A stretch of DNA of 64,000 nt, from positions 1,922,001 through 1,986,000 of the forward strand of contig NZ_MTJN01000002.1 in NCBI RefSeq assembly GCF_002017865.1. The letters run 5' to 3'. Within the stretch, counting starts at the first letter, position 1; every line of letters starts with the position of its first letter. Below the pieces are notes generated by a model. The model was not told where the DNA came from, did not search any database, and saw only the letters and a list, made by a program, of their open reading frames with translations. Positions 16,756 to 33,267 of this stretch are shown in pieces. Position numbers and translations under genes: made by a program. The stretch is from Rhodoferax fermentans (lineage in GTDB: Bacteria; Pseudomonadota; Gammaproteobacteria; Burkholderiales; Burkholderiaceae_C).

Positions 16756-16822
16756 AGCGGCCTGGCAAGCCGGTTGAGCTGGCGGGATAGCGCTGTGCCC
16801 TATGTTGAGAAAGGAGTCAACC

Positions 16823-18547: not shown

Positions 18548-18722
18548 TGGCCCCAATAGCCCTGTGTGTCTTTGACCTGCAAGGGGCCATGTCTGTCCCC
18601 GCTTTGACGGCCATCAGGTGGTAGGCGTACTTGATGCGCCCGCAATCCGTCCCGCTGGCCCGCGCGAATCTCTTTTGTGGCGGCGTTCCAGGCGATCACC
18701 GGGGGGGGGCGGCGGAATCCAT

Positions 18723-19151: not shown

Positions 19152-19504
19152 GATGCGCTGCCTGCCGTGTTGCCCGGTTCCTGTGCCGTCAGCAGCGATA
19201 ACTTGCGGTTAAGCAAGGACACAGTGAACAACGCACCAAACGGAACCAACGCGCCACCCAACATACCTCCGATTTCCCGAACGGTCCACGACTGGTTGGA
19301 CACCGCGTTGAAAACCATCCAAAGGTAGCTCAGGAAGACCATGCCATGGATCGGCCCCACCACCGACACAGCCGACGGCAAGCCGACCAGGTGTTTCAGT
19401 GGCACCGCAATACCGACCAGCAGAAGAAGGGTTGTGCCTTCGACAAGTGCCGCAGTTCGCAGTCGCCGCAGGTGAAGAAGATCGATCTGTTTTTGATGTG
19501 CCAT
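19148..19504 (-). CDS. DUF3817 family membrane protein
   Basis: A protein of about 118 residues with three hydrophobic helices and the blocks LVEGTTLLLLVGIAVPLK and VVGPIHGMVF that mark the DUF3817 family (integral membrane, no known reaction). The start at 19504 is chosen for family length; an ATG 18 codons upstream is possible. It overlaps the following CopD/HemJ-like gene by four bases, and the two form a small membrane operon divergent from the AraC-type regulator. Confidence 0.75.
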   Translation of the reverse strand: MAHQKQIDLLHLRRLRTAALVEGTTLLLLVGIAVPLKHLVGLPSAVSVVGPIHGMVFLSYLWMVFNAVSNQSWTVREIGGMLGGALVPFGALFTVSLLNRKLSLLTAQEPGNTAGSAS

Positions 19505-19694
19505 GCTTTTGATCCTGTGAATGAACGGTATTTTTGCTGGCAGAAGTTTTTGCGACAAGTGGCTACAAAGTCAATGTTCAACAGGTTTCAGCCAATTGCT
19601 GCTTCATCAGATAAATACCTGCAAAAATATCGCAAAATGGATAAGAGCATCGCAAGGACATTGGCTTGAATATAAATAAAGTAATAATCCAGCC

Positions 19695-20645: not shown

Positions 20646-20737
20646 TCGTCGTCCCAAGGCTTGGAATTCAGCCTGCTTAACATGCAGGCGACAACAGACA
20701 CTGTCGATGATTTCCAAGGCTTACTTGCTGGTGGAGA

Positions 20738-20773
20738 GGATGAGGATCGAACTCACGACCTCTACATTGCGAA
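20738..20773. other. attachment site, distal copy of tRNA-Ala 3' half
   Basis: These 36 bases are identical to 33201-33236 and cover the anticodon loop through the T arm of tRNA-Ala on the minus strand. Just outside, 20730-20737 still encode an alternative acceptor 3' strand and a CCA. The original chromosomal tRNA end therefore appears to lie here, and the intact gene at 33192-33267 has an element-supplied 3' end. This is the classic product of tyrosine-recombinase integration into a tRNA gene. Confidence 0.85.
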
Positions 20774-20830
20774 TACTTCGGACAACGAAAAACTACCTGT
20801 ATTTACAACATCTTACAGTACGTTTCTCAA

Positions 20831-20852
20831 AGTAGTACGCTTGAGTAGTACG
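20831..20852. repeat. two direct copies of AGTAGTACG near the left island end
   Basis: AGTAGTACG occurs at 20831-20839 and again at 20844-20852, spaced 13 bp start to start. The same nonamer forms an inverted pair near the right end (33107-33115 and 33123-33131). Placement close to both attachment sites fits arm-type binding sites for the integrase or a directionality factor. The rest of 20774-20979 has no gene I can support. Confidence 0.6.
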
Positions 20853-20979
20853 CAACTTTGGGAGTTAAAAAATTGGCCTCACTTGCACTCACATCGAATT
20901 TCAGCAGCAAGTCTATATCGTCGTAACTCAAGTTGCTTTCAGCAACGCTGACCTGCCGATTCTGCGGTCCGTTAACGCG

Positions 20980-21171
20980 TTATGTGCTGGCGCTGGGACT
21001 GGCAGGCAACTGCAATTTTTGTTTGCGCTGCGCATCGCGTTGCACGCGTTGTCTGTCGCGTTCAGCCTGTAGCGTATCGCGTGTTTTTTCCACGCTCTGC
21101 TGCAGCCCTTTGATGCGTGCTTGCTCTGGTGTTGGTGGTTTGGGTGGTGTTTGTATTTCGTGTATTCGCAT
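20980..21171 (-). CDS. small charged coiled-coil protein, mobile-element type
   Basis: A 63-residue protein starting MRIHEIQ at 21171 (an upstream in-frame ATG at 21234 is less likely). After a proline-rich start it is a single charged helix rich in Gln, Arg and Lys, ending in a short tail. Similar small proteins beginning MRI(H/Q)E, with a PxTPEQAR segment, are common in plasmids and islands, but no function is known to me. It is the last gene of a leftward trio with the two upstream genes. A perfect dyad at 21201-21219 lies 30 bp before its start. Confidence 0.6.
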   Translation of the reverse strand: MRIHEIQTPPKPPTPEQARIKGLQQSVEKTRDTLQAERDRQRVQRDAQRKQKLQLPASPSAST

Positions 21172-21200
21172 CAAGTATTTAGCTTGAAACGAAAAGGCAA

Positions 21201-21219
21201 GCGTCGTGTTACACGACGC
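21201..21219. repeat. dyad GCGTCGTG-TTA-CACGACGC
   Basis: A perfect 8-bp inverted repeat with a 3-base centre, lying immediately after the stop of the 21224-21493 gene. Related dyads (TGTCGT...ACGACA) lie at 28630-28646 and 31495-31511, also at gene 3' ends, and looser ones at 29789-29805 and 30563-30579. Confidence 0.65.
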
Positions 21220-21223
21220 ACGA

Positions 21224-21493
21224 TCAGTATTCACTTGCCATTAGCAGCGTCGTTGCCGACCGATCCCATTCCGTAATCACATACAGCTTTTCACCCTGCA
21301 CCACATACGCACTCAGTATGCGTTCATCGTGCTGCACAGCATGGACGTTGGAAGCAACATCGGCGGCGCTTATGTCGCCCCAATCGCCGCCAATGTGCTT
21401 GCCAAGCAGCAGCAGCGGGTTAACTCTGTGTTGTTCGCAGTGTGCCAATGCACCAGGTGTTGCGGTCACCTGGCCAAGTTCAAATAGTGCCAT
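21224..21493 (-). CDS. conserved small protein of plasmids and islands (GDWGD family)
   Basis: An 89-residue protein with FELGQVTATPGAL near the start, then GGDWGD, ILSAY and ITEWDRSATT. I recognise this pattern from small proteins carried by many plasmids and integrative elements, sometimes labelled as restriction-enzyme subunits without basis; no activity is established. It looks like one compact alpha/beta domain with no signal peptide. Its start is 5 bp from the end of the upstream DUF6641 gene, so they are co-transcribed. Confidence 0.75.
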   Translation of the reverse strand: MALFELGQVTATPGALAHCEQHRVNPLLLLGKHIGGDWGDISAADVASNVHAVQHDERILSAYVVQGEKLYVITEWDRSATTLLMASEY

Positions 21494-21498
21494 TGCGC

Positions 21499-21951
21499 TT
21501 ACTTGCCAAAAGCCTTGCGCAGTTTGTCGCTGGCAGCAGTAATCACATCATCCAGTTCCCCAGCGCCAGCAGCAGCCTTCACCAACTCCAATGTTTTGAC
21601 AAGTTCGCTGGCGCTGGCAACTTCAATGGTTGGCCTATTTTTTCCACCACTTAAATCCAAAATTTTGCTGCCGTATTTGATGGTTAATGACACCTTGCCA
21701 TCAGCAGTGTTCCAAAACCAGGTTTTGACGCGCTTCGCCGTTTGAACGCTGCTTTTTTCACCGCTGTCCGCGTCCGTCACCACCTTCGTTTTGCTTGGTG
21801 CATAAATGCGACCTTCTGCAAGTGCCGTTGCCAGCGCGATTTGTTCATCAATGCGTTCCGCAAGTTTGTTGCGGCGAATATGAACGGGTGAAAGTTGAGT
21901 CGGTTTCTTAGCAGTTGTGAATTTCAGTGATGCAAGTGTATTAGTTGCCAT
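21499..21951 (-). CDS. DUF6641 family protein
   Basis: A 150-residue basic protein. The ATG at 21951 gives MATNTLASLKFTTAKKPTQL, the standard family opening, whereas a start 24 codons upstream would add an unrelated stretch. The middle has an AKRVKTW segment and an SLTIKYGSK strand, and the C terminus is an acidic helix. DUF6641 proteins occur on plasmids and islands beside the GDWGD-type gene found here downstream; a nucleic-acid role is a guess from the basic N-terminal half. First gene of a leftward operon; AT-rich sequence upstream (22025-22095) is the likely promoter region. Confidence 0.75.
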   Translation of the reverse strand: MATNTLASLKFTTAKKPTQLSPVHIRRNKLAERIDEQIALATALAEGRIYAPSKTKVVTDADSGEKSSVQTAKRVKTWFWNTADGKVSLTIKYGSKILDLSGGKNRPTIEVASASELVKTLELVKAAAGAGELDDVITAASDKLRKAFGK

Positions 21952-22118
21952 ATGCTTTTGCCTTTCAGTATTTGTTAAAGCAAATGCAACTATATTGTCG
22001 CCATTCAAAAGGTCAAATTTCAACCAACCTTTCTACCAGTATATTTAGCAATAATCGCAGTTCACCAAATAATTTATAAATTTATATTTGGTTATGTTTG
22101 GCGAAGATAAATAAATGC

Positions 22119-22706
22119 ATGAAAGCCAAAACCAAAGGTCAAAAACTCCAACAAGCATACAGACAGTTCATCGCACCTTATTCTCTATATCTGCAAGTTG
22201 CAGCAACATTTACGCTCAAGCAACGAGCAAAAATTAAAGTGAAGAGATTTGAGAATTACGGAAATGAGACATATGAATTTTGGCAGAATTTGAGCGAAGA
22301 CATCTTGCACAATCAAATTCATCATTTCACTGCTCGCCTCACCAGTTTGGTTTATGGCAACAAGAGAAAAAACAAGAAATATGCTCAAACTGCTAGACCA
22401 TTGGTGATTGTGAGCATTGAAGGAAGAAATGTTGCAAAACGAACACACCTGCACTTGGCAATTGGCAATATTCCGAATGAAAAAATGGAGAACATTGAAG
22501 AATTGATTATTAAAGCGTGGGAAGGTTGTGACTTTGCATACAAGAAGAATGAGACAAAGTTGCTCAATGGCCCATATGGCTGGCTTAGCTATATCACAAA
22601 GGAAGTGGGATACACAGACAACGATGCACTTGACATTGTTTCATCTACTATCCCCCAATTCATTCAACAAAGCATCAGTACCGACGGTAATTTGCTAACT
22701 GCGTGA
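22119..22706 (+). CDS. putative HUH-type endonuclease / replication initiator
   Basis: A 195-residue basic protein in strongly AT-rich DNA. It shows, in the right order, a hydrophobic strand ending ATFTL near residue 30 (like Rep motif 1), HLHLAIG with His110 and His112 (the HUH metal site), and WLSYITKEV with Tyr158 and Lys161 (like the catalytic tyrosine helix of single-Tyr Reps). That order is what rolling-circle Reps and mobilisation nickases have. A TTG start at 22098 would add seven residues. If correct, it would nick an origin on the excised island. No family name can be given, so this is motif-based inference. Confidence 0.5.
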   Translation: MKAKTKGQKLQQAYRQFIAPYSLYLQVAATFTLKQRAKIKVKRFENYGNETYEFWQNLSEDILHNQIHHFTARLTSLVYGNKRKNKKYAQTARPLVIVSIEGRNVAKRTHLHLAIGNIPNEKMENIEELIIKAWEGCDFAYKKNETKLLNGPYGWLSYITKEVGYTDNDALDIVSSTIPQFIQQSISTDGNLLTA

Positions 22707-23087
22707 ATTTTAAAAATTTGAAGGTTGCAGAGAAGTTCAAAGCACTTTATTAGATTTCTATTGGCTAATTATTTTAAGAGAAAGATTAAGAATGTCAGGT
22801 TTAGGCAACACTGATACAAAGAACGCTAGACAAACACAGAAGATGAATTGAACCACAGCGCAACAGAAAGACAAATGAAAATTGGCGACTGCAGTGAGAG
22901 ATTCGAGCATGGCGCACCGCTTTGCATTGCTTTTAAAAGTCAAAGTGCGGCCACCAATGAAAAGCATACTTTTATTTGGTATTGACTAAATAATTTATGC
23001 AGTATTCAATTCAAATCATAGGTTGTCCTTCACTACCAATGGATTTATCATTTGATACACGAAATTATTTAGTATAGGAAACCAAAA
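22707..23087. other. AT-rich gap without a gene
   Basis: About 380 bp with no supported coding frame. The end (23041-23085) is AT-rich and closes with AGGAAACC before the recombinase ATG, so it probably holds that gene's promoter and ribosome-binding site. An origin for the HUH-like protein could also lie here, but no clear nick-site hairpin was found. Confidence 0.4.
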
Positions 23088-23654
23088 ATGGCACAAGCAA
23101 AAACACTCACGCAAGTTGAAATTGAACAAGTGCTTGCATACATTGCTACGCGCAGATTTGCAATGCGCAATCGCGTCATGCTGCTAACGAGTTTTTGGAG
23201 CGGAATGCGTGTGGGTGAAATTGCCAGCTTGAAAGTTGGAGATGTGATGAACACGGATGGCACGGTGAAAAATGAAGTGCGTTTGGCTGCGGAGCAAACG
23301 AAAGGTCGTCAACCGCGCACCGTCTTTCTGCCGCAGCGACTGCAAACTGAAATGCAGCGCTATATGGATGTGCGGCGTGTGACTGATGCGACGCAGCCAC
23401 TGTTTGTGACCGCTGGCGCTAAGGCGTTTTCAGCCAATGTAATGGCACAGCATTTTTTCTGGCTCTATAAGAAGGCTGGCATTGCTGGCGCTAGTTCGCA
23501 CAGTGGTCGCCGTTCGTTCATCACTTCATTGGCCTGCAAAGGAATTTCAGTGCGAGTGCTAGCAAGTCTTGCTGGCCATCGCAGCATCGCTGTTACCCAA
23601 CGCTACATTGATGTGAACGACGATATGAAGCGAAATGCGGTGGAAATGATCTGA
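23088..23654 (+). CDS. minimal tyrosine recombinase (catalytic domain only)
   Basis: A 188-residue site-specific recombinase. All catalytic positions are present: Arg41 in GMRVGEI, Lys72, His138-Ser-Gly-Arg141, His164 in AGHRS and Tyr173 in QRYIDV. There is no N-terminal core-binding domain, so it is the size of FimB/FimE-type invertases rather than of phage integrases. It may invert or resolve a segment of the island, or move a sub-module. A decayed C-terminal remnant of a related recombinase lies 1.2 kb downstream. The island's main integrase at 31637-33043 is unrelated in length and motif detail. Confidence 0.85.
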   Translation: MAQAKTLTQVEIEQVLAYIATRRFAMRNRVMLLTSFWSGMRVGEIASLKVGDVMNTDGTVKNEVRLAAEQTKGRQPRTVFLPQRLQTEMQRYMDVRRVTDATQPLFVTAGAKAFSANVMAQHFFWLYKKAGIAGASSHSGRRSFITSLACKGISVRVLASLAGHRSIAVTQRYIDVNDDMKRNAVEMI

Positions 23655-24097
23655 CTTGTGCTTGATGTTGTATCGGCTAACGACGACCGTAGCCACTTGT
23701 ATTAAACGTAAATTTGAGTCAAACGCCATGTCTCATACATATCTAAAAGATTGACCACTATTGATAGTACTCCAAGTACGACGATCGACAAACAACACCC
23801 AATAGCTGGCTATGAGTTAAATTGATATCCTTACAGAAAGGAGAATAATCACACAATATTTCATTTAAAATCGTTTCTTTTTTTATATCCACGTCTACGA
23901 AAGTTAATTTTCAAATTTTAAAAAGCAATATCGTACTGATCAATTATTTTTAATGACGAAATATATAGGTAACAACTATGTAAATTCTGACCATTTTTAA
24001 ATAAAAGTTTGAAAATACATATCAGATTAAGCTATTTAAAATTAATTGCTTAATGTGAATGTACTTCGCTATTTGGGCGAAGGATTATTTAATATCA
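23655..24097. other. AT-rich gap without a gene
   Basis: About 440 bp, very AT-rich, with no frame I can support on either strand. It lies between the minimal recombinase and the convergent exported-protein gene. No clear hairpin terminator is seen. Confidence 0.5.
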
Positions 24098-24799
24098 TTA
24101 ATAATTAAACATATTGGAGCAATCTAACATTCTTTTCATTGGATCATTTTTCCGCATGTTTAAAACTTTTTCTTCAGCCTCAACCCAAAATTTGTCTTTG
24201 GGTGTATTTATTCGAGTGGCCATTAAATACATACAGTATGCGGTATCTAGCACACTATAGTCACCTTTCTCGCTTCCAATTTTCAGTACTTCATTGGTTT
24301 TATTAACGCAGGCTTCTCTATTTGTATTGCAAACAATAACAATCTCTTTGTTTATAGCCGCTCTTTTATCATTTACGACTTTTTGACTTTCCTTAGCCTT
24401 GTTTCTGACAATATCTTGCTCGCAAACTGATTTCCTTGTTATTGCAGATCGTACAGCTGTTAATATATCTGAATCCACTATCTGATTGCAACCATTAATT
24501 ACTACAGCACTGGGTCTTCCAAAGTTGTTCAAAATTGCATTGCAAACCGATTCGTTTAAATTTGGAGCCTCGTATTGACTACGAAATACTGCAAATTTGT
24601 CAGCATCCTCTTTTATCTGTTGTGTGTTTACACACGTGGTAAAAAGAGGAGCAATGTCTTTATTGATGGCCTCGTTCATAACCTTATGTACAATTGCAGC
24701 TAGATCATTTGTATTCTCTAGTGGATTAAAAGCAAATGCCATTTTTGATAAACAACAAACCAATAACGTAAATACTGGCAAAATCCTCAAAAAAAACAT
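24098..24799 (-). CDS. exported cysteine-containing protein, unknown
   Basis: A 233-residue protein with a clear signal peptide (about 1-23, hydrophobic core ILPVFTLLVCCLSKMAFA). The mature part is mainly helical and charged, with about nine cysteines spread through it (for example TTCVN, VCNAI, NGCNQ, VCEQD, VCNTN), suggesting disulfides in the periplasm. I do not recognise a family. The gene is strongly AT-rich, unlike the chromosome, so it arrived with the island. It is preceded on the other side by a recombinase remnant, so it may be a separately acquired cargo unit. Confidence 0.65.
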   Translation of the reverse strand: MFFLRILPVFTLLVCCLSKMAFAFNPLENTNDLAAIVHKVMNEAINKDIAPLFTTCVNTQQIKEDADKFAVFRSQYEAPNLNESVCNAILNNFGRPSAVVINGCNQIVDSDILTAVRSAITRKSVCEQDIVRNKAKESQKVVNDKRAAINKEIVIVCNTNREACVNKTNEVLKIGSEKGDYSVLDTAYCMYLMATRINTPKDKFWVEAEEKVLNMRKNDPMKRMLDCSNMFNY

Positions 24800-24826
24800 A
24801 ATATCTCCAGTTAATTAACAATAAAA

Positions 24827-24932
24827 TTTAGCGTATTTGAAGGCTTAACTGGTCATTACAACGTTGCTGTGACGCAGAAATACATTGATAGGAAGGACAA
24901 TATGAAGCGCAATGCGGTGGAATTGGTTTAAT
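24827..24932 (+). pseudogene. remnant of a tyrosine recombinase C terminus
   Basis: In one frame these bases read GLTGHYNVAVTQKYID followed by an MKRNAVELV-like end and a stop. This matches the end of the intact recombinase at 23088-23654 (LAGHRSIAVTQRYID, then DMKRNAVEMI). Upstream of it the frame has no recombinase body, only the start region of the divergent exported-protein gene. It is a 3'-terminal relic of a second recombinase copy, about two-thirds identical at DNA level over the best stretch by eye. Confidence 0.75.
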
Positions 24933-24939
24933 TCACAAA

Positions 24940-25557
24940 TCAATATCCACAAACCATACTCATTTGCATGTTCATAGTATGAGCTAAATATTTACCATGT
25001 GATTCAACAACTCGTCCGACAATACAATCCTGCGGTCCATTAGGTGTATCTACGCTAATGCGACATCCGCCATCTTTTCGATTATATGCACCTATAAATC
25101 CGATATTTCTCATCGAAGTTTGCCAATTCGTTGCCGACAGAGATACTAAGCCTTGCGTCATCCCACTAATTTTGCTGCAGACTTGCTCAATATCTTTAAG
25201 GGAATCAATCAATATTGGCTCATCAGACCTGGACTCAACTTCGACAGGCGGCGTTGTTGGCTTGGATTCGATAATATTTTTGGTTTTCAATTTTTCACTG
25301 ATAATCCTCGCCTCTGCTGCTTTTGATTCGGCAGCTTCTCTTTCGACCGTTAATCTCCTTTCTTCAGCATCCTTAGCGATTTGTGGGTTATCTTCATAAT
25401 ATTTCTGCTGTGTATGCCAACCCTTCGCTTGAACCTCTTTCATTTCAGGTACGCTAGAAAATCCAAGCTTCTGTGCTTCATCAGCCTCACCGCTGCAGCC
25501 TAAAAGTACGAGCGCAGTTATTACTGCCAGTGTTTTGTTTAACCATGTAAATGGCAT
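24940..25557 (-). CDS. lipoprotein with GFSSxxEM motif
   Basis: A 205-residue predicted lipoprotein. The signal sequence ends in LLGCSG, a lipobox with Cys21. Directly after is LGFSSVPEMKEVQAKGWHTQQKYYE, a motif shared with the lipoprotein encoded just upstream. Then comes a charged coiled coil (about 60-100) and a C-terminal domain with paired cysteines (QVCSKISG, GGCRISV, DCIVG, VCGY). The function is unknown. It is separated by about 40 bp from the upstream lipoprotein gene on the same strand, so they are probably co-expressed. Confidence 0.7.
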   Translation of the reverse strand: MPFTWLNKTLAVITALVLLGCSGEADEAQKLGFSSVPEMKEVQAKGWHTQQKYYEDNPQIAKDAEERRLTVEREAAESKAAEARIISEKLKTKNIIESKPTTPPVEVESRSDEPILIDSLKDIEQVCSKISGMTQGLVSLSATNWQTSMRNIGFIGAYNRKDGGCRISVDTPNGPQDCIVGRVVESHGKYLAHTMNMQMSMVCGY

Positions 25558-25596
25558 GATGCAATTCCTTTTAAATTTATAGGTTATTAGTGACGA

Positions 25597-26484
25597 TTAG
25601 AAACTCGGCTTTTTGCTTTCTAATACCCATGCCTTTGCATTCACATACATCATCTTCATTCCGTCATCCGTCTCTTCAGCAATCCTCTTATCGAGCAATG
25701 CCAACATCCTTTCTTTATCCTCTGAAAATTGCCAAGCTATCCACATTGCTTCCAATGCCTCATTTGGTTTGCCTTGCTTTTGCTTAGCGATCGCTATAGG
25801 TAGCCAAATATTTGCTCGTTTCGGGTTTAGCAAGAGACCGTTGTAAGCTAACTGTTCGGCTTTGCTAACATTCCCATCTTCGTTATAGGCGAAGATAAGG
25901 TTGGACAGAATTTCCTCGTCTGCGGGGTCCGCCTCAAGCGCCTGAGTAAGTGTGGCTGCCGCGTCGGGCAGTTTGCGCTGCTTCAATGATTCCAAGCCTT
26001 CACTGTTCAGCTTGCGCGCCAACTTGCGGTCCCCGCGCTGGGGCTTAGGCATTGCGCCAATGCGACGCGCGGCTTCCATCGCACTGGCAACAGACTCAAT
26101 CTTTGCCGCACCCAACATAGCTTCTGCACAAGCTCTAACACTGTCACAAGCTGATGCAGCAGCTAATACAGCAGCACTATTGGTTTCTTGCGCTGGTGAC
26201 GGTGGAGTTGCAGCTACTTGGGAAACTACAGGCTCAACTTGGGATGCGGCAACGACGGGAGAAGATTCAACTACAGCAGGAGTTTGTGGTGCTGTTGCAG
26301 CAACTGGTGCTGGCTTGGTCATCTCATCAAGTTTTTGTTTTGTTTGATACCCCTTGTCAAACGCTGCTTGCATTTCATTATTGCTGGAAAAACCGAGTGC
26401 CTTATAGTCATATTCAACTTTAGAACAGCCAGCCAATAGAAAAGAAGCTAGTCCAATTGTTACTATTTTCGCTGCTATATTCAT
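25597..26484 (-). CDS. TPR-containing lipoprotein with GFSSxxEM motif
   Basis: A 295-residue predicted lipoprotein. The lipobox is LLAGC, then LGFSSNNEMQAAFDKGYQTKQKL, the same motif as in the next gene. Residues about 60-120 are a low-complexity Ala/Pro/Val/Thr linker, and the C-terminal half (about 150-265) contains tetratricopeptide-like helices (LNSEGLESLKQRKLPDAAATLTQALEADP and two more). It likely anchors at a membrane and presents a protein-binding solenoid in the periplasm. GC content is higher here than in its AT-rich neighbours. The partner is unknown; the adjacent lipoprotein is an obvious candidate. Confidence 0.75.
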   Translation of the reverse strand: MNIAAKIVTIGLASFLLAGCSKVEYDYKALGFSSNNEMQAAFDKGYQTKQKLDEMTKPAPVAATAPQTPAVVESSPVVAASQVEPVVSQVAATPPSPAQETNSAAVLAAASACDSVRACAEAMLGAAKIESVASAMEAARRIGAMPKPQRGDRKLARKLNSEGLESLKQRKLPDAAATLTQALEADPADEEILSNLIFAYNEDGNVSKAEQLAYNGLLLNPKRANIWLPIAIAKQKQGKPNEALEAMWIAWQFSEDKERMLALLDKRIAEETDDGMKMMYVNAKAWVLESKKPSF

Positions 26485-26589
26485 TGCAAAATTTTCCTAT
26501 GTGTTTTAATAACTGCCGAACATCACGCTGACAAAGGTTGGAGTTTTTTAATGCCAAGTTATAAAAAGATCAAATTAAATATCAAATCT

Positions 26590-26961
26590 TTAATTGGTTT
26601 TGGCATACTGTAATGCCATATTGCACTGGGCAAAAAACATCGGTGCGATCCCTGCCATTGGGATTGATGGATGTATCTCTTTCGCTTTTTGATACGGCTT
26701 CCAGCACATATCTTCAGTCGAGCCTCCGATTCGGTTGGCTCTGACTTCTTGCCATGCAGCCCCAAGCGTGTCAATTACTTTTGCTCTGTCACTGCAATCA
26801 ACGACGATGGCTCTGTTTGCGCTTGTAGGTGCTGACCCCTTGCAGACTAACTCGTAGCCCGCTGTCGCAGGAAGAGCTGTTGCAGCAGCCCCAACAGCGA
26901 ATATCGTTGCAACTACAGATGAGCGCCCCAATTTTTCCAGCTTGTTCAGCTTCGTTCTCAT
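26590..26961 (-). CDS. small exported protein, unknown
   Basis: A protein of about 123 residues. The ATG at 26961 is preferred because AAAGGAAG lies just upstream; a more distal ATG at 27027 is possible. The N terminus is basic (MRTKLNKLEKLGRSS) and followed by a hydrophobic stretch ending LPATAGY, a signal peptide. The mature domain has three or four cysteines (LVCKG, VDCSD, MCWKP, QCNMA) and no family I recognise. It is the first gene of the exported-protein block, about 105 bp upstream of the TPR lipoprotein gene. Confidence 0.6.
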   Translation of the reverse strand: MRTKLNKLEKLGRSSVVATIFAVGAAATALPATAGYELVCKGSAPTSANRAIVVDCSDRAKVIDTLGAAWQEVRANRIGGSTEDMCWKPYQKAKEIHPSIPMAGIAPMFFAQCNMALQYAKTN

Positions 26962-27347
26962 CCGCTTCCTTTGTTGTTGACTCAACACTTCATTTAGCAA
27001 AATCGATGCAACTAGTGGCAGCATCATTTATGAGAATCTATCCGGTAATCACCTGCTTTACGTTTCATTGTTAGCCAATATGGCATTCTTCTCTGTGATC
27101 GCCGCAGGTTGTGTGAAAGTGTGCAACGCACTGGTCTACGGCTAGTGGCGCACCTATCTTCACACGTAGTCCACTCATAAGACGTTTTTTTATCTCTCGT
27201 CAAGCCATAGATGATCGCCAATTTGGCGAGCAATAGTATAGCTTGAACAAAGGCTCTATTTTTTTGTCAACAGGCTCGAGCAATGCCCGCAACCACCGCA
27301 TTGCTTTGGCTGGTCAACGGCGTGCATGGTCGATATGATCTGCATCT
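26962..27347. other. divergent intergenic region
   Basis: About 386 bp between the leftward exported-protein block and the rightward winged-helix gene. No credible gene is present. The arrangement suggests that it holds divergent promoters, and the winged-helix protein could act on them. Confidence 0.4.
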
Positions 27348-27704
27348 GTGCCGTCCCAACCTACCTTCTCTCAAACCTATCTCCGGTTTTTAAACTTGGT
27401 TCAAGCAATCCGCCAAAAGGATCGTTTGTTTGCGCTCGATCCCGTAGATGAGCGCCTGCTTAACTGTTTTGCGGTGGTGTGGGTGACGGGACGCTATTTA
27501 ACAGCCTCTGAAGCATCCGTTAGCGTTGCGGATGTTGCCCCGCGCACCGTGCAGCGTCGAGTGGTGTCGTTGGTGGAAAAAGGGCTGCTACGCGTGGAAA
27601 GCGACGAGAAAGACAACCGAGTCAAATATCTGTTTGCAACAGACAAGACGGCTCAGTATTTTGAAGAACTGAACAAGTGTTTAGAGCAAGCGAAACGCAG
27701 GTAG
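27348..27704 (+). CDS. MarR-like winged-helix regulator
   Basis: A 118-residue protein starting at a GTG. The middle is a winged helix: LTASEASVSVADVAPRTVQRRVVSLVEKGLLRVESDEKDNRVKYLFAT, with the recognition helix RTVQRRVVSLVEKGL and a wing carrying DNRVKY, as in MarR-family and phage-type regulators. The flanking helices would dimerise. It is divergent from the exported-protein genes and convergent with the MASE1-like gene, and it is the only clear transcription factor on the island, so it is the probable switch for island or cargo genes. Confidence 0.75.
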   Translation: MPSQPTFSQTYLRFLNLVQAIRQKDRLFALDPVDERLLNCFAVVWVTGRYLTASEASVSVADVAPRTVQRRVVSLVEKGLLRVESDEKDNRVKYLFATDKTAQYFEELNKCLEQAKRR

Positions 27705-27763
27705 CGTAAGCAGGTTACACAGCGTGCATCAGGTTTTTCTTCATACCCGCTAATTACAAAGCA

Positions 27764-28339
27764 CTATGCGCTGTGCGCTTGTTGCTTAAATGCATTGGTG
27801 GCAAAGTGGAAAAGCATAACGACAATAAAGCAGCCAGTGAAATCGCCAAGCGCCATTGCTGCGCCTTTTGACAGCAACTCGCTGCCCGTCGTCACATGTT
27901 GCGAGTAGTAAGCGAGATTGAGTATGAACCCATTCAGAATACTACCCAGCGTGGATAAAAATACTATATGCAAGTAGTTCAAATTGCTTAAATCCGAGCT
28001 AATTTTGAAAAACTTAGTCACACACATAACTGCAGTGTAGTAGGTTGATACACTAACAATCGCAAGCGAGAATGTAGATAAGAACGACGAATTGTCACCC
28101 CATAACCCAACACTAATATAGGCACTCGCTGCAAGAACACCAACGATTGCAGGTAAGCCACCTACAAGTATGCACAGCAGCTTGACTCCCGCAGGCACAA
28201 AAACAAGACTGGAGCCTGGTGCATACAGCATGTAAGGGTCTAAAAATTCGTTTAGCGCGAAGGAGCCGAGCAGCAAAAAACATGAAACTACAGAGATGGC
28301 AAGGTTGGCAACACTGTCGTTTTCAAGTATATGTTTCAT
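27764..28339 (-). CDS. MASE1-like integral membrane protein
   Basis: A 191-residue protein made almost entirely of six or so hydrophobic helices. The segment SSLVFVPAGVKLLCILVGGLPAIVG resembles the conserved early part of MASE1 membrane sensor domains. Normally MASE1 is fused to GGDEF, EAL or kinase output, but here there is no output domain, so it is either an orphan sensor that works with another protein or a transporter-like relative. It is alone on its strand. The 300 bp upstream (28340-28629) contain no supported gene. Confidence 0.6.
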   Translation of the reverse strand: MKHILENDSVANLAISVVSCFLLLGSFALNEFLDPYMLYAPGSSLVFVPAGVKLLCILVGGLPAIVGVLAASAYISVGLWGDNSSFLSTFSLAIVSVSTYYTAVMCVTKFFKISSDLSNLNYLHIVFLSTLGSILNGFILNLAYYSQHVTTGSELLSKGAAMALGDFTGCFIVVMLFHFATNAFKQQAHSA

Positions 28340-28629
28340 CGTCTATATCACAATTACTGAGCTATCGTTTGTGGAGATGCTGTGCTGCACCAATCTGCAC
28401 CAGCGTTCTTTTCTTAACAGTCAAATTATTCTCTGTTACTTCATCTTACACGGCCAGTGGAATACATAAGGTGTAGACGCTGACATTGCGATGCAACGGG
28501 TATTTGTCGGCTACTGCTGCATTGCTGGCGCTGGTTGTTGCGACACGCTACCAATTACTTCAAGTACTTTCATCGTCAGTCTCCCTTGTCGTCTTGTATT
28601 TATTGCGGGTGATGGCGCTGCACTGATGC

Positions 28630-28646
28630 TGTCGTGTTGCACGACA
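28630..28646. repeat. dyad TGTCGTG-TTG-CACGACA
   Basis: A perfect 7-bp inverted repeat with a 3-base centre that ends one base before the stop codon of the 28648-29622 gene (minus strand). It is the same dyad type as 21201-21219 and 31495-31511. Confidence 0.65.
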
Positions 28647-28647
28647 C

Positions 28648-29622
28648 CTAAGAGAGCAAGTCGCTCTCACCAGAGATGAATGCAGCCATGCGCAGACGAG
28701 TCTTGCCGTCAGGCATTTTCATCTTATGCTCCACATGTTGCCTGCATACGATTTCAAATTTCAAACCCGCTGCGAATTCCCTATCCAGCCACTGCGCCCA
28801 CACTGATTTGGTGCCATCTTTGCCATCTTGCGTTGCTGCGCGATAGTCAGTTTGATGTTTTAGCCCAAAAGGCTGATGCCTTGCGCTCAGCTCAATGGCA
28901 TCTGTATTGGGAAAGCTGCCGCGCTCAGCATGCAACAACGAATACCGCCCTTTATATAGATAGCGACCAGTCAGTGAGTTGAGCGCATGTTTGGAGGAAT
29001 TCAGTATGCTGCCATCACCGTCGCGTACTCGATGCTGGGGCGCGACTTGCAGTCGGTCGCCAATTCGCCAAACTTCAATATTGGGGTACAGCAAGCGATA
29101 CAGCATCACCCAGTATTCCGCTTCGATAGTGTGCAATCGATAGCGCTTGGTATGAAGTTTGAATTCTGCCTGACTGTGAGCGGCAAGATCAAGTCCGCGT
29201 CCCGCGTGGACATCACTTAATAGCGCTTTAAATTGCTTAACGATGGTTTGCTGGCGAATGCTCAGCGGCACCTCTAAATAGAGCTTGTTGGGGTCAAACG
29301 GGTGTTCGTGCAATTGATCCAGCGCCAGCAATTGGACACTCGCTGGGCGCTTGGACTCAGCAAATATCACACGGCCAGTTGACCGCCACCATGTGTCGAA
29401 ATATCTGGTGCGCAGGTCACCAAAGGATTCGGCTACTTTGGCAATTTGTGGATCAGTGGGCTTGATGCCTGTTTCTTGTGCAAACCACAGAACGGGACTC
29501 AAGCGCAAGAACGACCACCACCAGTAATAGATGCTTCGTCCTGCCTCATCCACCTCAAGTTCATCGGAAGCAGCGACAAACTTTGGAAATCCCTTAAAAA
29601 ACGGCCTTCTATTTAAGTTCAT
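28648..29622 (-). CDS. island protein of unknown function (WWWSFLRLSP)
   Basis: A protein of about 324 residues. The ATG at 29622 gives MNLNRRPFFKGFPKF; a longer frame reaches 29718. It is soluble-looking, rich in Arg, Trp and Tyr, with the striking block YYWWWSFLRLSPVLWFAQETG and later HTIEAEYWVMLYRLLYPNIEVWRIGDRL. No catalytic signature or domain is recognised. It is divergent from the coiled-coil/AAA+ gene pair, with about 128 bp between starts, so they probably share a control region. A perfect dyad follows its stop. A replication or maintenance role is only a guess from position. Confidence 0.6.
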   Translation of the reverse strand: MNLNRRPFFKGFPKFVAASDELEVDEAGRSIYYWWWSFLRLSPVLWFAQETGIKPTDPQIAKVAESFGDLRTRYFDTWWRSTGRVIFAESKRPASVQLLALDQLHEHPFDPNKLYLEVPLSIRQQTIVKQFKALLSDVHAGRGLDLAAHSQAEFKLHTKRYRLHTIEAEYWVMLYRLLYPNIEVWRIGDRLQVAPQHRVRDGDGSILNSSKHALNSLTGRYLYKGRYSLLHAERGSFPNTDAIELSARHQPFGLKHQTDYRAATQDGKDGTKSVWAQWLDREFAAGLKFEIVCRQHVEHKMKMPDGKTRLRMAAFISGESDLLS

Positions 29623-29750
29623 GACTCTTAGTGTAGCAATCAATTTCACAAACGGCACATTGTTGCTATGAACCAGACAATTCACACATCGAGACAGCAA
29701 ACGGAAGCAAATCTGCAAACCACTGTTGAGAGTTTTGAAAAGGAACTGAA

Positions 29751-30716
29751 ATGAAGATCAAAAATGAAGCTGTTACTACTCCTGCTGCTGTCGTGCAAAG
29801 CGACATGGCTGGCGCGACTGTGAAGGTCAACGCAAAGCTTGCACCAAATGCTGAAATTGATTTGGCGGCGATCAGTGCTGAACTGACCGCAAAGAACAAG
29901 GCAGACGCTGCTGACGCAGCGGAAAAGGCATTGAAGAAAGCGGCGAGTGCAATGAAAAAGGCAGACAAAAAGAGCGAAGCCGATGACAAGATTGCGGCTG
30001 CTAAGAAGGCGGTTGTGTTTTTTAAGCAGCTGGTCACTGAACGAGAGGGTTGGGAGCAGAACGCATACAAGACCAGCAACGATCAGCTCTATGCCTTGCT
30101 GCAAAAGTGCTACGGTTTTTATAACGATATGGCGGGCAGCACTGCGGCTGCTGCAGGAAAGCGCGACGGACTGAATCGCTATATCGAGCAAAAGGGCTAT
30201 AACTTTGCCAGCGCAACGCATACGCTGACGAAGATTGTCAAGTGTGTGTTTGGTGTTGATCGTCGTCGTGTCAGTGCTTATGGCATCGCACTGCGCTTTG
30301 CACTGGACAGTAAGGTTGCTGTGCAGGACCTGCCTGCATTCATCTACGACAACGGCGGCGTTGAGCAGATGCGGTTGGCTAAGTCTACGACTGCTATGAC
30401 TGTGAAGCAGAAGGCAGAAGTTGCACAGGAGGCTGTGAGTGCAAATACGCTGGCTGTTGTGACAAGTGCTGATTTTGCGAACACGTTTGACGCGGGCAAG
30501 ATTGGCAAGCATGTGGTGCTGATTGGGACTTGGCAGCAAGACGGAAGCGTGATTGCACGAGCTGTCGTGCAAAACGACGGTGTGGTGAACGCAGCACTGG
30601 CGAGTTACTACAGCGCGAATAAGGAAGCTGTTAAGGGCAAAAAAGTTGAGATGACGGCAGCGAATGACGACCGTGCAGCGCAGGAAGCACTTGAGCTGGC
30701 TGTGCTGGAAGCCTGA
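29751..30716 (+). CDS. coiled-coil protein upstream of AAA+ ATPase, unknown
   Basis: A 321-residue protein. Residues about 40-95 form a long Ala/Lys/Glu-rich coiled coil (AADAAEKALKKAASAMKKADKK), followed by a helical domain with aromatic residues (AYKTSNDQLYALLQKCYGFYNDMAG) and a basic segment (GVDRRRVSAYGIALRFALDSK) that could contact DNA. The C-terminal part alternates beta and alpha. No family is recognised. AAAAGGAACTGAA precedes the ATG. It lies 86 bp upstream of the AAA+ gene on the same strand and is likely its partner. Two copies of a TGTCGT...ACGAC dyad lie inside the gene. Confidence 0.65.
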   Translation: MKIKNEAVTTPAAVVQSDMAGATVKVNAKLAPNAEIDLAAISAELTAKNKADAADAAEKALKKAASAMKKADKKSEADDKIAAAKKAVVFFKQLVTEREGWEQNAYKTSNDQLYALLQKCYGFYNDMAGSTAAAAGKRDGLNRYIEQKGYNFASATHTLTKIVKCVFGVDRRRVSAYGIALRFALDSKVAVQDLPAFIYDNGGVEQMRLAKSTTAMTVKQKAEVAQEAVSANTLAVVTSADFANTFDAGKIGKHVVLIGTWQQDGSVIARAVVQNDGVVNAALASYYSANKEAVKGKKVEMTAANDDRAAQEALELAVLEA

Positions 30717-30802
30717 CTACACATGGCAGTGAGTTGGCAACGAAAACACACGCTGCTGACTACTGCACACAAAGCACACATTAATTTATATAGGGAACAA
30801 AA

Positions 30803-31504
30803 ATGGACATCCAAACTATCGTGCAGCGCGCTGCACCCAAATCAGTTGACGACATTGTTTTTGCCAGTGATGATGACAAGGGGTTGGTGACTGACATTGT
30901 GAGCGGCACTATGCCGTTCCCTGCATTTGGCAAGAATGGCGTCTTGCTTTATGGCATCAACGGCACTGGCAAGAGTGAATTGGCAAAACTGTTGCCAGAC
31001 GCGATGGAAGCGGTAAAAACGGGCGGACAGGCATTTGCGCGCTTTGAGCGTATACAAAATGGCAACAACGGGGGCGCTTTGATTGAGCGGCTGCAAGGCC
31101 AAGCGCAGCTGGTCCCATTTGCCAGTCATAACTATTTTGTGTTGGACGAGGTGGACAATTTGACTACTTTGTCGATGCCGTCGCTGAAGTCACTGATGAA
31201 TATGCCGCAGTCAATTTTTGTAATGACCACCAATCATTTCAGCAAGATTGAACTTGGGGTGCGCAATCGCTGCTACTGCATCGCTTTCAATGCGGCGCCA
31301 GCAGAGAATTGGCTGCCGCTGGCGCGGCGTATGCTGACAGATGCTGGCATTTTGACTGTCAGTGACGCAACGTTGCTGGGTGTCATTGCTACTGGCAAAG
31401 GTTCTGCACGGGATATTTTGAACGCCATCGTGCAGCTCATTTTGGCCGTGCGGCGCAAGCGGGCTTGTGAAGTCAAAGCCGCCCCCGCGCCATGTGTCGT
31501 TTAA
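30803..31504 (+). CDS. AAA+ ATPase, clamp-loader type
   Basis: A 233-residue single-domain AAA+ ATPase. Walker A is GINGTGKS (51-58), Walker B is FVLDEVD (112-118), sensor 1 is MTTN (141-144) and possible arginine fingers are Arg154/Arg156 in GVRNRC. The order and the LDEVDNLT block are closest to clamp-loader small subunits (RFC, phage gp44, DnaX), though it is short. On an island with a candidate Rep it could load a helicase or clamp, or act as a target-selection ATPase. A good hairpin terminator follows at 31521-31550, and the stop codon is inside a TGTCGTTT/AAACGACA dyad. Confidence 0.75.
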   Translation: MDIQTIVQRAAPKSVDDIVFASDDDKGLVTDIVSGTMPFPAFGKNGVLLYGINGTGKSELAKLLPDAMEAVKTGGQAFARFERIQNGNNGGALIERLQGQAQLVPFASHNYFVLDEVDNLTTLSMPSLKSLMNMPQSIFVMTTNHFSKIELGVRNRCYCIAFNAAPAENWLPLARRMLTDAGILTVSDATLLGVIATGKGSARDILNAIVQLILAVRRKRACEVKAAPAPCVV

Positions 31505-31511
31505 AACGACA
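31495..31511. repeat. dyad TGTCGTTT-A-AAACGACA over the AAA+ stop codon
   Basis: A perfect 8-bp inverted repeat with one central base. It spans the last codons and stop of the AAA+ gene, ten bases before the terminator hairpin. It is related to the dyads at 21201-21219 and 28630-28646. Confidence 0.6.
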
Positions 31512-31520
31512 TTGCATAAC

Positions 31521-31550
31521 AAGCCCACCCGTCAAACGGTGGGCTTTTTT
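31521..31550 (+). terminator. rho-independent terminator after the AAA+ gene
   Basis: AAGCCCACCCG and CGGTGGGCTT pair into a GC-rich stem with one bulged C and a TCAAA loop, followed by a run of six T. It ends the coiled-coil/AAA+ transcript. It faces the integrase gene, which is transcribed from the other direction and ends at 31637. Confidence 0.85.
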
Positions 31551-31636
31551 GCGTGCACGATTTGCCGCTGCGTATGCTTGCATGCGACAGCCAGCATCAA
31601 CGCAACTGGCAGCAGATTTGACGCATTGGCGGGTGC

Positions 31637-33043
31637 TTACGCTAAAGCGACCTTTTCTAAAGACTCCCGCCGCTGCAGAATCTCAAAATCTCCGTCGTAA
31701 ATGTTGCGATGGCGTCGGCGTGATTGCAGCATCGCAATGTTCATCTCGCCGCTCAACGGCTTCGCATAAAACCTGTCAATCATTTCCACACTTGTTCTTG
31801 CGTTACGCGCCAGCGCCAGCGTGTTGATGCCTTCGCCAAACAGCAGCCGATACATGATGGCCGTGTGACGCAGTGAATACAGCGTTCTGTCTTCGCCCGC
31901 TGCACTGGTTCCCAGCTTGGTGTCCCACATCAGTATTTCAAACTGGCGCTGCAACTGCTTGAGCGCATAGTCCCTGTTCGTTTTGTACTGCGGCAGAAAA
32001 ACGTAGTCATCGTCACAGCTCTTGCCGTCAATCAAGCCATGTTCAACATGGTACTTTTTCAGCGTCTCATAACTGTCCACCGCCTTTTCCATCGTCGTAA
32101 TGGGGTCGCTGTGATCTTTGGTTGGTGGCAGTCGCAGTCGCAAAAATGTGTATTCACCGCGCACAATGTCCACATGCTTGTGCTTCATAAACTTGATATC
32201 CGTCGGACGGATATAGCTGTTGCACATGAACACGATCAAGCGCCGCATGTCTTCCGTCATGTCCACGTTGCGCATCACCGTGCCAAGCTTGCCGCTTTTG
32301 GCGTTGGTGTTGATGAACTGCGTTTGGGTGTCGCCTTTTGCATCCTTGTACTTGCGAACTTCCATTCGCTGCCCAGCGTAGCGTTTTGCCGCACTCCATA
32401 GTCGCCTGTATTCCCGTGTCGTAAACCAGCCCCGCGCTTTGTCCTTCTTTGTGACAGTTGGGAACTCAGGCACAGATGCAATGAGTTTGCGTTTGGCGGC
32501 ATAAGACAAGACTTTGGCGATCAAGCCCATGTACGCACTGATAGTGGACGCGGTGAGCTTTTGTTCGCTCAGCGTATTTAAGAAGCGCTCAAGTGCGAAG
32601 TAGTCAATCTCCCGCACTTCCACATTTCTAAAGTGCGGCGTGATAAATTTGTCATAGCGGTACACGAAGTTGTCGTAAGTGCCCTTCGCAATTTCGCCTC
32701 TTTTCAACCTGGCCTTTTCCGCTTTCAGCAGCTCTTTCAAACAACTTTCAAAACCAGTTGCTGATGCGGTGGCAGCGATGCCGTGCCGCTGGTTGTACGT
32801 GATGATGTCGTAAAACTCTTTGGCGAACGCGATGGCCTTCTGTTTGCTATCAGTTTTGGTGGATTTGCGAACGGCATTGCGCCCGACAAAGTACCGCGCC
32901 CACCAATATCGGCTGGCTTGCAGCTTGTAGATGTACAGCTTGGTTGGATAGCCTGGTATGTAGTGCTTTTCAGTAGCACCAGTCCTGTGTTTAGGCTGCG
33001 CAATCGTTGCTTTTGCGCCAGTAGTTTTCTGCACTTCAGTCAC
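31637..33043 (-). CDS. tyrosine integrase of the island
   Basis: A 468-residue site-specific integrase. It has an N-terminal arm-binding region, a SAM-like core-binding segment (about 100-190), and a catalytic domain with Arg in SYIRPTDIKF, YSLRHT (YxxR instead of HxxR), LARNARTS (Asn where many have His) and the nucleophile Tyr in DRFYAKP. Replacement of both histidines is normal for the common LARNxGTS branch of proteobacterial integrases. The start is a GTG at 33043 with GGAAG before it. It lies 149 bp from tRNA-Ala, whose 3' half is the attachment core, and it should catalyse excision and integration of the island. Confidence 0.9.
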   Translation of the reverse strand: MTEVQKTTGAKATIAQPKHRTGATEKHYIPGYPTKLYIYKLQASRYWWARYFVGRNAVRKSTKTDSKQKAIAFAKEFYDIITYNQRHGIAATASATGFESCLKELLKAEKARLKRGEIAKGTYDNFVYRYDKFITPHFRNVEVREIDYFALERFLNTLSEQKLTASTISAYMGLIAKVLSYAAKRKLIASVPEFPTVTKKDKARGWFTTREYRRLWSAAKRYAGQRMEVRKYKDAKGDTQTQFINTNAKSGKLGTVMRNVDMTEDMRRLIVFMCNSYIRPTDIKFMKHKHVDIVRGEYTFLRLRLPPTKDHSDPITTMEKAVDSYETLKKYHVEHGLIDGKSCDDDYVFLPQYKTNRDYALKQLQRQFEILMWDTKLGTSAAGEDRTLYSLRHTAIMYRLLFGEGINTLALARNARTSVEMIDRFYAKPLSGEMNIAMLQSRRRHRNIYDGDFEILQRRESLEKVALA

Positions 33044-33103
33044 GCTTCCATCCCAAAAGCGTAATACTACGCGCCTTCACACAAAAAGGCTAGGCCGAAG
33101 AGG

Positions 33104-33134
33104 AAAAGTAGTACGGGTGTTTCGTACTACTTTT
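33104..33134. repeat. perfect 12-bp inverted repeat containing AGTAGTACG
   Basis: AAAAGTAGTACG and CGTACTACTTTT flank a 7-base centre. The nonamer AGTAGTACG also occurs twice at the left end of the island. Lying between the integrase start and the tRNA attachment core, it is a plausible integrase/excisionase arm site or an operator controlling the integrase promoter. Confidence 0.7.
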
Positions 33135-33191
33135 GACTTACTTTTTGAAGCGACAAAAAACATTAAGTCCTTGTCGTCATTGAATAAAAGG

Positions 33192-33267
33192 TGGTGGAAG
33201 GGATGAGGATCGAACTCACGACCTCTACATTGCGAACGTAGCGCTCTCCCAACTGAGCTACCCCCCA
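33192..33267 (-). tRNA. tRNA-Ala(CGC)
   Basis: A 76-base cloverleaf on the minus strand with encoded CCA. The anticodon stem-loop CTACG-TTCGCAA-TGTAG gives anticodon CGC (decodes GCG), and the D arm GCTC...GAGC and T arm with TTCGATC are normal. The G3-U70 alanine identity pair is present. Oddity: the acceptor has only six G, so base 1 is U opposite C72, a mismatch; a seventh G would restore pairing. The 3' half (33192-33236) is part of the island attachment repeat. Confidence 0.93.

Follow-up and report, generated by a model that had tools for sequence, protein, structure and literature searches.

Operators of the KorB/ParB type are iterated palindromes of about 17 bp dispersed over a small replicon, and T4-type and archaeal/eukaryotic clamp-loader small subunits are built on an AAA+ core with intact ATPase motifs. 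Counterparts of both, dispersed palindromes of about 17 bp and an AAA+ protein with such motifs, lie together in a 12,463-bp island at tRNA-Ala(CGC) of Rhodoferax fermentans, which we studied in a window of 64,000 nucleotides (positions 1,922,001-1,986,000 of the 4.45 Mb contig NZ_MTJN01000002.1). Among integrative elements, published phage satellites measure 7-20 kb and have integrase, regulation and replication genes without structural genes, according to the accessible part of one source (PMC13376191), and the satellites of the PICI, P4-like and PICMI kinds, as the available text of another presents them (PMC10803314), resemble the island in being small and integrative, with an integrase and no structural genes. 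The Islander-class tRNA/tmRNA islands without transfer genes (I23, I44 and I55), in the accessible portion of PMC12595487, are alike in their tyrosine integrase, their attachment (att) repeats at the tRNA/tmRNA 3' end and their defence-type cargo. Tycheposons, including the tRNA-Met flexible genomic island fGI-3 of Methylophilaceae (PMC10872708, accessible in part), share with the island and its relatives a tRNA border, a tyrosine recombinase and overlapping hosts, two of the related loci (L038 and L041) deriving from metagenome-assembled genomes (MAGs) of Methylophilaceae.

The island belongs to a family of integrative elements that seems not to have been described before; its members often measure about 10 kb and come from mostly freshwater Betaproteobacteria. 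Our overall reading, to which we give a probability of about one half, is that these are helper-dependent or plasmid-like integrative elements that would carry their own module for replication or maintenance after excision. An earlier note on this DNA, made from the letters alone, had described an island of a type it could not name; its observation is confirmed by the present analysis, and its interpretation is partly supported.

Boundaries of the island

The exact 36-nt repeat GGATGAGGATCGAACTCACGACCTCTACATTGCGAA at 20738-20773 and 33201-33236 bounds the island, is nested in a 45-nt repeat of 96% identity (20729-20773 and 33192-33236) and, with up to two mismatches allowed, occurs at just these two positions in the 4.47 Mb genome. 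One of these direct repeats completes the tRNA gene, and a tyrosine integrase beside it starts about 150 nt from the tRNA, the arrangement of a tRNA-targeted integrative genomic island; the boundaries that had been called firm from the visible att copies and integrase stand. Two genomes of the same genus, G005 and G024, have an intact tRNA whose end matches the 45-nt attL, and not the copy within the tRNA, at 100% identity. This would be the outcome if the island had supplied a tRNA end of its own, and positions 20729-20773 are probably the host tRNA end displaced by the island. About 90 nt resembling the integrase-side end of the island adjoin the tRNA in G024. A clean empty site was not found: in the relative G004, 95-96% identical on both flanks, window positions 18631-33260 are absent together with most of the tRNA. 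That genome has a single AAA+ match, which is weak and lies within a 452-aa frame.

Shared genes and distribution of the family

It is nearly certain that the island is a member of a recurrent mobile element family, recognisable in the sequences by integration at a tRNA 3' end with paired att repeats and by a common gene set with variable cargo. Its mobility is supported by the att sites, a sporadic distribution and varied targets. Across 71 loci selected by CC or AAA+, some of them on truncated contigs, we counted the coiled-coil protein that we call CC in 68, the AAA+ ATPase in 67, a small tyrosine recombinase (YR2) in 66, the large tyrosine integrase (Int) in 62, the protein that we call 'Rep' (the gene at 28648) in 59, a DUF6641 protein in 58, the small gene s84 in 41 and an HUH-like gene in 5. 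The set includes 15 and then 40 further stretches, from which five duplicates (L120, L121, L124, L127 and L128) were removed before counting, and it retains some dependence: L154 and L156 overlap by 7.5 kb, L143 and L145 overlap by 1.1 kb, and L135 and L136 share 7.6 kb at 98.8% identity. The earlier note had made its reading hang on relatives with integrase, Rep and AAA+ as a block, and relatives do share the integrase, the 28648 gene and the AAA+ gene together.

Homologs of the AAA+ protein number 1,087 at E<=0.001, the best 120 of them mostly metagenome-derived. A profile run against 84,980 species genomes returned 25 AAA+ loci, with Limnohabitans, Polynucleobacter, Methylophilaceae and Rhodoferax represented along with further records that are mostly betaproteobacterial; AAA+ loci also lie on MAG contigs labelled Rhizobiales and Akkermansia, where misbinning is possible. 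Around the AAA+ gene of 27 loci compared by tblastn, the neighbours DUF6641, YR2, 'Rep', CC and integrase recur, the full set not being present at every locus. Fifteen further loci were also searched, and core genes were found in L064-L073 and in none of L074-L078. The CC matches in the latter (family f85) were rejected as element loci, being segments of long chromosomal proteins with no core genes nearby; these proteins, from several genera of another family, contain a domain resembling the CC C-terminal domain. The long protein of L076 was considered as a PAS-domain protein, to which Pfam assigns no family.

Within the genus of the window, a clear AAA+ homolog was found in 1 of 59 relatives (G030). 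CC was detected in 7 of the 399 genomes sampled at order level, one of them that of the window, and in 15 of the 398 drawn at phylum level. Ten of the latter matches are weak: that of G577 is broken, and nine others, with E from 1.7e-11 to 9.9e-5, fall in open frames 426-661 aa long. In the genus of G090, which we take to be Polynucleobacter, CC is present in 70 of 186 species genomes and in 63 of the 144 good ones, with 57 of the 70 at E<1e-30 and 13 only at E 1e-8 to 1e-21. An apparently unnamed element is thus present in roughly one third of the species genomes searched in this well-known freshwater genus (57-70 of 186, depending on the cut-off). One locus (L038:3510-17126) has two adjacent core sets, the second of which (Rep, CC, AAA+ and DUF6641, 13092-17126) is without GTCGT sites, a case of tandem accretion.

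Iterated palindromes

The palindrome (T)GTCGT-N5-ACGAC(A), usually flanked by T and A, was met during the search for att repeats and is absent from the earlier note. There are four exact copies in the window, all within the island, and none in 100 shuffles, the pattern having been fixed after relatives had been inspected. In the whole genome, TGTCGTN5ACGACA occurs at three places, two of them in the island, and a reversed-pattern control occurs twice per strand, so that this genome-wide count is weak when taken alone.

Palindromes differ in sequence and spacing by element lineage and recur at gene ends and in or near the CC 5' end. Among 36 loci searched, 27 contained 117 exact matches, with spacers of 5 (101), 6 (10) and 7 (6), the last two concentrated in L036, L037 and L048; variant arms were TGTCGG, nine times in L042, GTCCTT in L045 and L137, AGCGTC in L070 and CTAGTT in L046. 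The sites are found where genes end on their 3' side, in the stretch that separates YR2 from 'Rep' and behind AAA+; at CC they lie upstream of the gene or within the 5' portion of its coding sequence. At least one GTCGT or GTCGG palindrome was found in the core span of 51 of the 71 loci, and at least two in 43. Core spans hold 152 palindromes in 489 kb, and the remainder, which includes cargo and neighbouring elements, 103 in 802 kb, whereas five control palindrome pairs occur 7, 1, 6, 22 and 4 times inside core spans, the control with 22 overlapping the motif itself. A site score of 16 was reached in 38 of 69 CC 5' regions, against 7 of 207 shuffled sequences and 31 of 207 random windows from the same loci, and the full score in 21 of 69, 0 of 207 and 16 of 207, respectively; the cut-off of 16 was chosen after the list had been seen, the controls were run later, and the random windows themselves hold sites.

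The peptide encoded over the CC site varies (VVQND, ESFTND, VVSNTT, VLLKD) while the palindrome is constant, a difference between classes that indicates selection on the DNA, and the palindromes very probably function at the DNA level. We consider it very improbable that they are transcription terminators or RNA hairpins, which would make them uninformative on replication. Many do lie at convergent gene ends, but others are in the CC coding sequence or upstream of CC, a distinct terminator-like hairpin follows the window site at 31496 (by reading), and mismatches in the arms, on the CC sense strand, are 3 G-T against 4 A-C, with no bias towards the G-U pairs of RNA.

Other repeats were seen in individual elements. 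The element of L042 (regions 1530-1790 and 11150-11202) is bounded by a 41-nt repeat that lies at the 3' ends of two related genes (365 and 417 aa) and not at a tRNA; just inside its left end are three tandem TGTCGG palindromes, 43 nt apart, possibly an origin or a cluster of arm sites. A second palindrome, AACTTT-N5-AAAGTT, is iterated four and five times in L025 and L026, respectively. Repeat blocks of about 100 nt, promoter-like or attC-like, accompany palindromes and cargo in L025 (1112-1215, 1815-1918, 15716-15819 and 17117-17220) and L064 (11667-11760, 15725-15820 and 17831-17910).

Candidate readers of the palindromes

Elements have exchanged site classes in nature, which gives a hint of the protein that may read the palindromes. 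Site classes were assigned by eye in 39 loci, of which the 36 with all four proteins were used; loci of unclear class were left out, including L066 and L146 with four to eight GTCGT matches. In these 36 elements, protein identity predicted site class with an area under the curve (AUC) of 0.72 for AAA+, 0.66 for CC, 0.56 for Int, 0.51 for both Rep and DUF6641 and 0.44 for YR2. The nearest neighbour was of the same class for CC in 26 of 36 cases, for AAA+ and YR2 in 25 of 36 each, for Rep in 22 of 36, for DUF6641 in 20 of 32 and for Int in 20 of 30.

L045 has GTCCTT sites. Its AAA+ and Rep have their closest relatives among GTCGT-type elements, at 85% and 77% identity, and its YR2 is 92% identical to the YR2 of such elements. 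The CC of L045, by contrast, is closest to that of the GTCCTT-type L137 (68%) and L138 (66%), its identity to the CC of a GTCGT-type element being 64%. Informative columns, counted as GTCCTT-type to GTCGT-type, stand at 4:1 for CC, 8:0 for Int, 0:4 for AAA+, 1:3 for YR2 and 0:0 for Rep and DUF6641; few as they are, they argue for CC or Int, and against YR2 and AAA+, as the reader. CC is our preferred candidate, on the grounds that it is present in nearly all loci and that its own gene has a site within or ahead of it, but the proposal remains tentative, since the nearest-neighbour counts hardly separate CC from YR2 and AAA+. A role of Rep was also considered: all six Rep-less elements seemed free of iterated palindromes, but with a wider pattern GTCGG-type sites appeared beside core genes in L067, L135, L136 and L153, with one at a distance from the core in L159 and none in L152, and the idea was abandoned.

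A different proposal is that YR2 reads the palindromes and shuffles gene modules in the manner of a shufflon or integron, the sites at gene ends being cassette boundaries. Many sites do lie 3-30 nt from gene stops (by eye), YR2 and Int modules switch order and strand from one element to the next, the active site of YR2 is complete, and both the 100-nt repeat blocks beside sites in L025 and L064 and the YR2 3'-end remnant in the window cargo would fit such traffic. It is nevertheless improbable: the YR2 of L045 is as close to GTCGT-type elements (92%) as to L137 and L138 (90-91%), the AUC of YR2 is the lowest of the six proteins, and a site within the CC coding sequence cannot be a cassette boundary.

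Core proteins

The clamp-loader-like ATPase and coiled-coil partner that had been proposed are both in place (Table 1). The best relative of the AAA+ profile in the PDB is an archaeal replication factor C small subunit (5.6e-12), the match stopping at the AAA+ core; residues that we assigned to Walker A and B, sensor and arginine-finger motifs are invariant in 42 and in 67 sequences. At 233 aa, the protein has the ATPase motifs of clamp loaders and lacks their collar domain. The AlphaFold2 (AF2) model of CC has a long coiled coil, a helical domain and a small beta hairpin, with a predicted local distance difference test score (pLDDT) of 82.4 and a predicted template modelling score of 0.59. 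The second recombinase noted earlier was recovered as YR2, which resembles XerC/D-type recombinases and keeps the active-site residues R41, K72, H138, R141, H164 and Y173 in all of 65-66 sequences.

The earlier suggestion of an HUH Rep in the core block fell. The AF2 model of the 28648 protein (pLDDT 91.5) is nearly all helix with no sheet, and its invariant columns include no conserved histidine, so that the HUH motif and beta-sheet fold are both missing and this gene was rejected as an HUH Rep. Searches against Pfam, PHROG, NCBIfam, the PDB and viral folds gave it no significant match. A distant relative of 'Rep' lies beside a DUF3024 gene on Bradyrhizobium plasmids (L160:6001-6664). The HUH-like gene is a different one, at 22098, and non-core: it has an HxH and YxxK pair in the window, a similar pair in L024 and H-x-N in L070 and L043, as read from sequence, and its product has no significant Pfam, PHROG or NCBIfam match and matches no relaxase model.

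The motifs of the 22098 gene raise the prospect of an integrated small plasmid, with the HUH-like protein as rolling-circle initiator, YR2 as resolvase and the large integrase acquired later. YR2-like recombinases occur on 985 plasmid records (984 at <60% identity), which would suit that origin. The idea is quite improbable. The HUH-like gene is confined to 5 of 71 loci, and in two of these the motif reads H-x-N, not H-x-H. Among plasmid records, none has a match to AAA+, CC or the HUH-like gene, and 'Rep' matches just three Bradyrhizobium plasmids, at 28% identity over 61%.

Table 1. Features of the island and its borders (window positions).
Feature	Position	Strand	Basis
attL, displaced tRNA-Ala 3' end	20729..20773		45-nt repeat, 36 nt exact; equals intact tRNA end of G005 and G024
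Conserved small gene s84; actual start probably closer to 21170	20980..21234	-	homologs in 41/71 loci
Palindromic site GTCGTGTTACACGAC	21203..21217		exact palindrome search
89-aa ORF (open reading frame), function unassigned	21224..21493	-	no Pfam match; no relative in 26 loci
DUF6641 protein	21499..21951	-	Pfam PF20346 E=7e-13; in 58/71 loci
Candidate for a small HUH-like endonuclease (HLHLAIG, YITK motifs)	22098..22706	+	common to L024, L070, L043, L123, weakly L041
YR2, 188-aa tyrosine recombinase	23088..23654	+	Pfam Phage_integrase 6.9e-26
Exported protein, cargo	24098..24799	-	signal-like N-terminus by reading; no Pfam match
Remnant of second YR2 3' end, 77% nt identity	24849..24925	+	repeat comparison within window
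Lipoprotein-like cargo gene	24940..25557	-	lipobox-like start read from sequence; no Pfam match
TPR lipoprotein-like cargo gene	25597..26484	-	TPR_19 8.9e-6
Exported protein, cargo	26590..27027	-	no Pfam match above curated cut-off
Winged-helix, MarR-like regulator	27348..27704	+	weak Pfam and NCBIfam matches
MASE1-like membrane protein	27764..28339	-	PF05231 1.5e-4, under curated cut-off
Palindromic site GTCGTGTTGCACGAC, 3' end of 28648 gene	28631..28645		exact palindrome search
'Rep', all-alpha protein, start uncertain	28648..29625	-	223 homologs; AF2 pLDDT 91.5
CC protein, coiled coil and conserved helical domain	29751..30716	+	at least 694 homologs; AF2 pLDDT 82.4; in 68/71 loci
Palindromic site with one mismatch, in CC 5' coding region, TGTCGTGCAAAGCGACA	29789..29805		sequence reading and site scoring
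Palindromic site GTCGTGCAAAACGAC, within CC 3' part	30564..30578		exact palindrome search
AAA+ ATPase, clamp-loader-like, without collar domain	30803..31504	+	Pfam AAA 3.5e-6; PHROG clamp loader 1.1e-14
Palindromic site GTCGTTTAAAACGAC at AAA+ stop codon	31496..31510		exact palindrome search
Tyrosine integrase (large, Int)	31637..33043	-	Phage_int_SAM_5 4e-6; PHROG integrase 6.3e-20
tRNA-Ala(CGC), attR at 3' end (33201-33236 exact)	33192..33267	-	Rfam tRNA match

Size, targets and cargo

Twenty-three elements have an att pair on a tRNA, with spans of 8.8-16.9 kb (median 10.8 kb) and 16 of them below 11.6 kb, a size range biased by a search limited to repeats 6-19 kb apart in stretches of up to about 20 kb; the spans of L145, L146 and L147 (15.8-16.9 kb) may reflect tandem elements or unrelated repeats. 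The targets are tRNAs for Met, Phe, Pro, Cys, Lys and Ala, with Thr (L131) and Arg (L145) in one element each, both with unusually long repeats. The cargo scan took in 101 ORFs outside the core set, each about 100 aa or longer, from 19 delimited elements (18 with att pairs and L033). Among the best 25 of 45 Pfam families were five integrases, three cytosine methylases, two HpaII-type restriction enzymes, outer-membrane and autotransporter proteins and acetyltransferases, and the best 25 of 141 matches to a defence library included methyltransferase models.

The window cargo (23,660-28,640) sits between YR2 and 'Rep', genes that adjoin tail to tail in L024 and L027, and the copy of a YR2 3' end within it suggests recombination with another element. 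Exported and lipoprotein-like genes are present there, as had been proposed, but they have no counterpart in the 26 loci compared, each window cargo gene being a singleton in its cluster. The lipoprotein-like genes at 24940-26484 have a common N-terminal motif, LGFSSxxEM...KGxxT, and appear paralog-like by reading.

Such sizes and cargo raise the alternative of a new phage-satellite family, a roughly 10-kb element that a helper phage would induce and package after excision and replication by AAA+/CC, its restriction-modification cargo guarding the host. The integrase at a tRNA, the 16 of 23 spans at 8.8-11.6 kb, the methylases and restriction enzymes among the 101 cargo ORFs, and a size and gene make-up comparable with those of the satellites in the accessible part of PMC13376191 all argue for it. 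We nonetheless regard it as somewhat unlikely. AlpA, primase and terminase families are absent from the window proteins scanned; no AAA+ or CC relative was confirmed in IMG/VR by scans with short peptide patterns, and the 13 IMG/VR stretches with the palindrome have one copy apiece and no core genes; and 50,697 phage records contain no CC relative and only distant AAA+ matches, mostly clamp-loader genes among the matches listed. One AAA+ match, in phage record MT836377, was discarded because the contig reads as a bacterial chromosome with a DnaX gene.

A proposed replication or maintenance module

Under the reading of a helper-dependent or plasmid-like element with its own module, the integrase would excise the element as a circle, and an element-encoded protein, most likely CC, would bind the palindromes as a dimer on double-stranded DNA. 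A complex of CC and the AAA+ ATPase on the circle may then support replication or maintenance and regulate the CC-AAA+ operon, YR2 would resolve multimers, and transfer would rely on a helper, whether a phage, a conjugative element or DNA uptake; dependence on a helper is proposed because no transfer or virion gene was recognised. A role of AAA+ and CC in replication or maintenance seems to us to have slightly less than an even chance, and YR2 as a resolvase is a possibility that we hold with some reserve.

Several observations weigh against this reading. Twenty of the 71 loci have no GTCGT or GTCGG site in the core span. As a predictor of site class, identity in AAA+ does slightly better than identity in CC, and CC, AAA+ and YR2 share class with their nearest neighbours about equally; in L045 the margin by which CC would side with its site class is small, and the integrase follows that class as well as CC does. 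Fold searches with the CC and 'Rep' models returned no match indicating function, and the distant CC-like domain in long chromosomal proteins suggests that DNA binding is not a necessary property of the CC domain. Neither an excised circle nor its copy number nor an origin of replication was observed, terminal overlaps, tried as proof of circles, being absent in the 9 contigs tested. The conserved palindromes and the three-gene block of AAA+, CC and the all-alpha 'Rep' make the element amenable to direct bench tests.

Comparison with known systems

The earlier claim that the island matches neither a prophage nor an integrative and conjugative element (ICE) was upheld by the protein scans. No capsid, portal or terminase was seen, there being no PHROG structural match in 10 island proteins; no relaxase, the mark of an ICE or of an integrative and mobilisable element, and no type IV secretion family was found in the island proteins scanned (Pfam, NCBIfam) or in the best 25 of 45 cargo Pfam families; and no AlpA, primase or known replication family was found in island proteins of at least 69 aa (16 by Pfam, 10 by PHROGs). 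No scanned protein-family model names this kind of element, and a literature search that mostly did not reach subscription papers returned no paper mentioning DUF6641 or the palindrome string and, among the papers listed, no title or opening of an abstract naming the element.

PICMI are defined by int, alpA and primase in the available text of PMC10803314, whereas neither AlpA nor primase was recognised in this island. The I23, I44 and I55 islands differ in having AlpA at the far end, and the accessible part of PMC12595487 mentions neither an AAA+/clamp-loader gene nor element-specific palindromes. Tycheposons, compared by description alone, span 4-200 kb and have xerD, and the accessible text of PMC10872708 does not mention an AAA+/CC/Rep core. 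Unlike the small subunits of clamp loaders, the island AAA+ protein has no collar (233 aa), is encoded beside CC and belongs to an element without recognised viral genes; and although the dispersed palindromes resemble KorB/ParB operators, CC and 'Rep' have no significant sequence or fold match to a solved protein. It is a bolder and, in our estimate, unlikely proposal that these elements form a separate class, in which circles would be kept and copied by a clamp-loader-like ATPase and a DNA-binding CC partner, with lineage-specific palindromes as marks of 'self', a scheme unlike the known modules of plasmids, ICEs and satellites.

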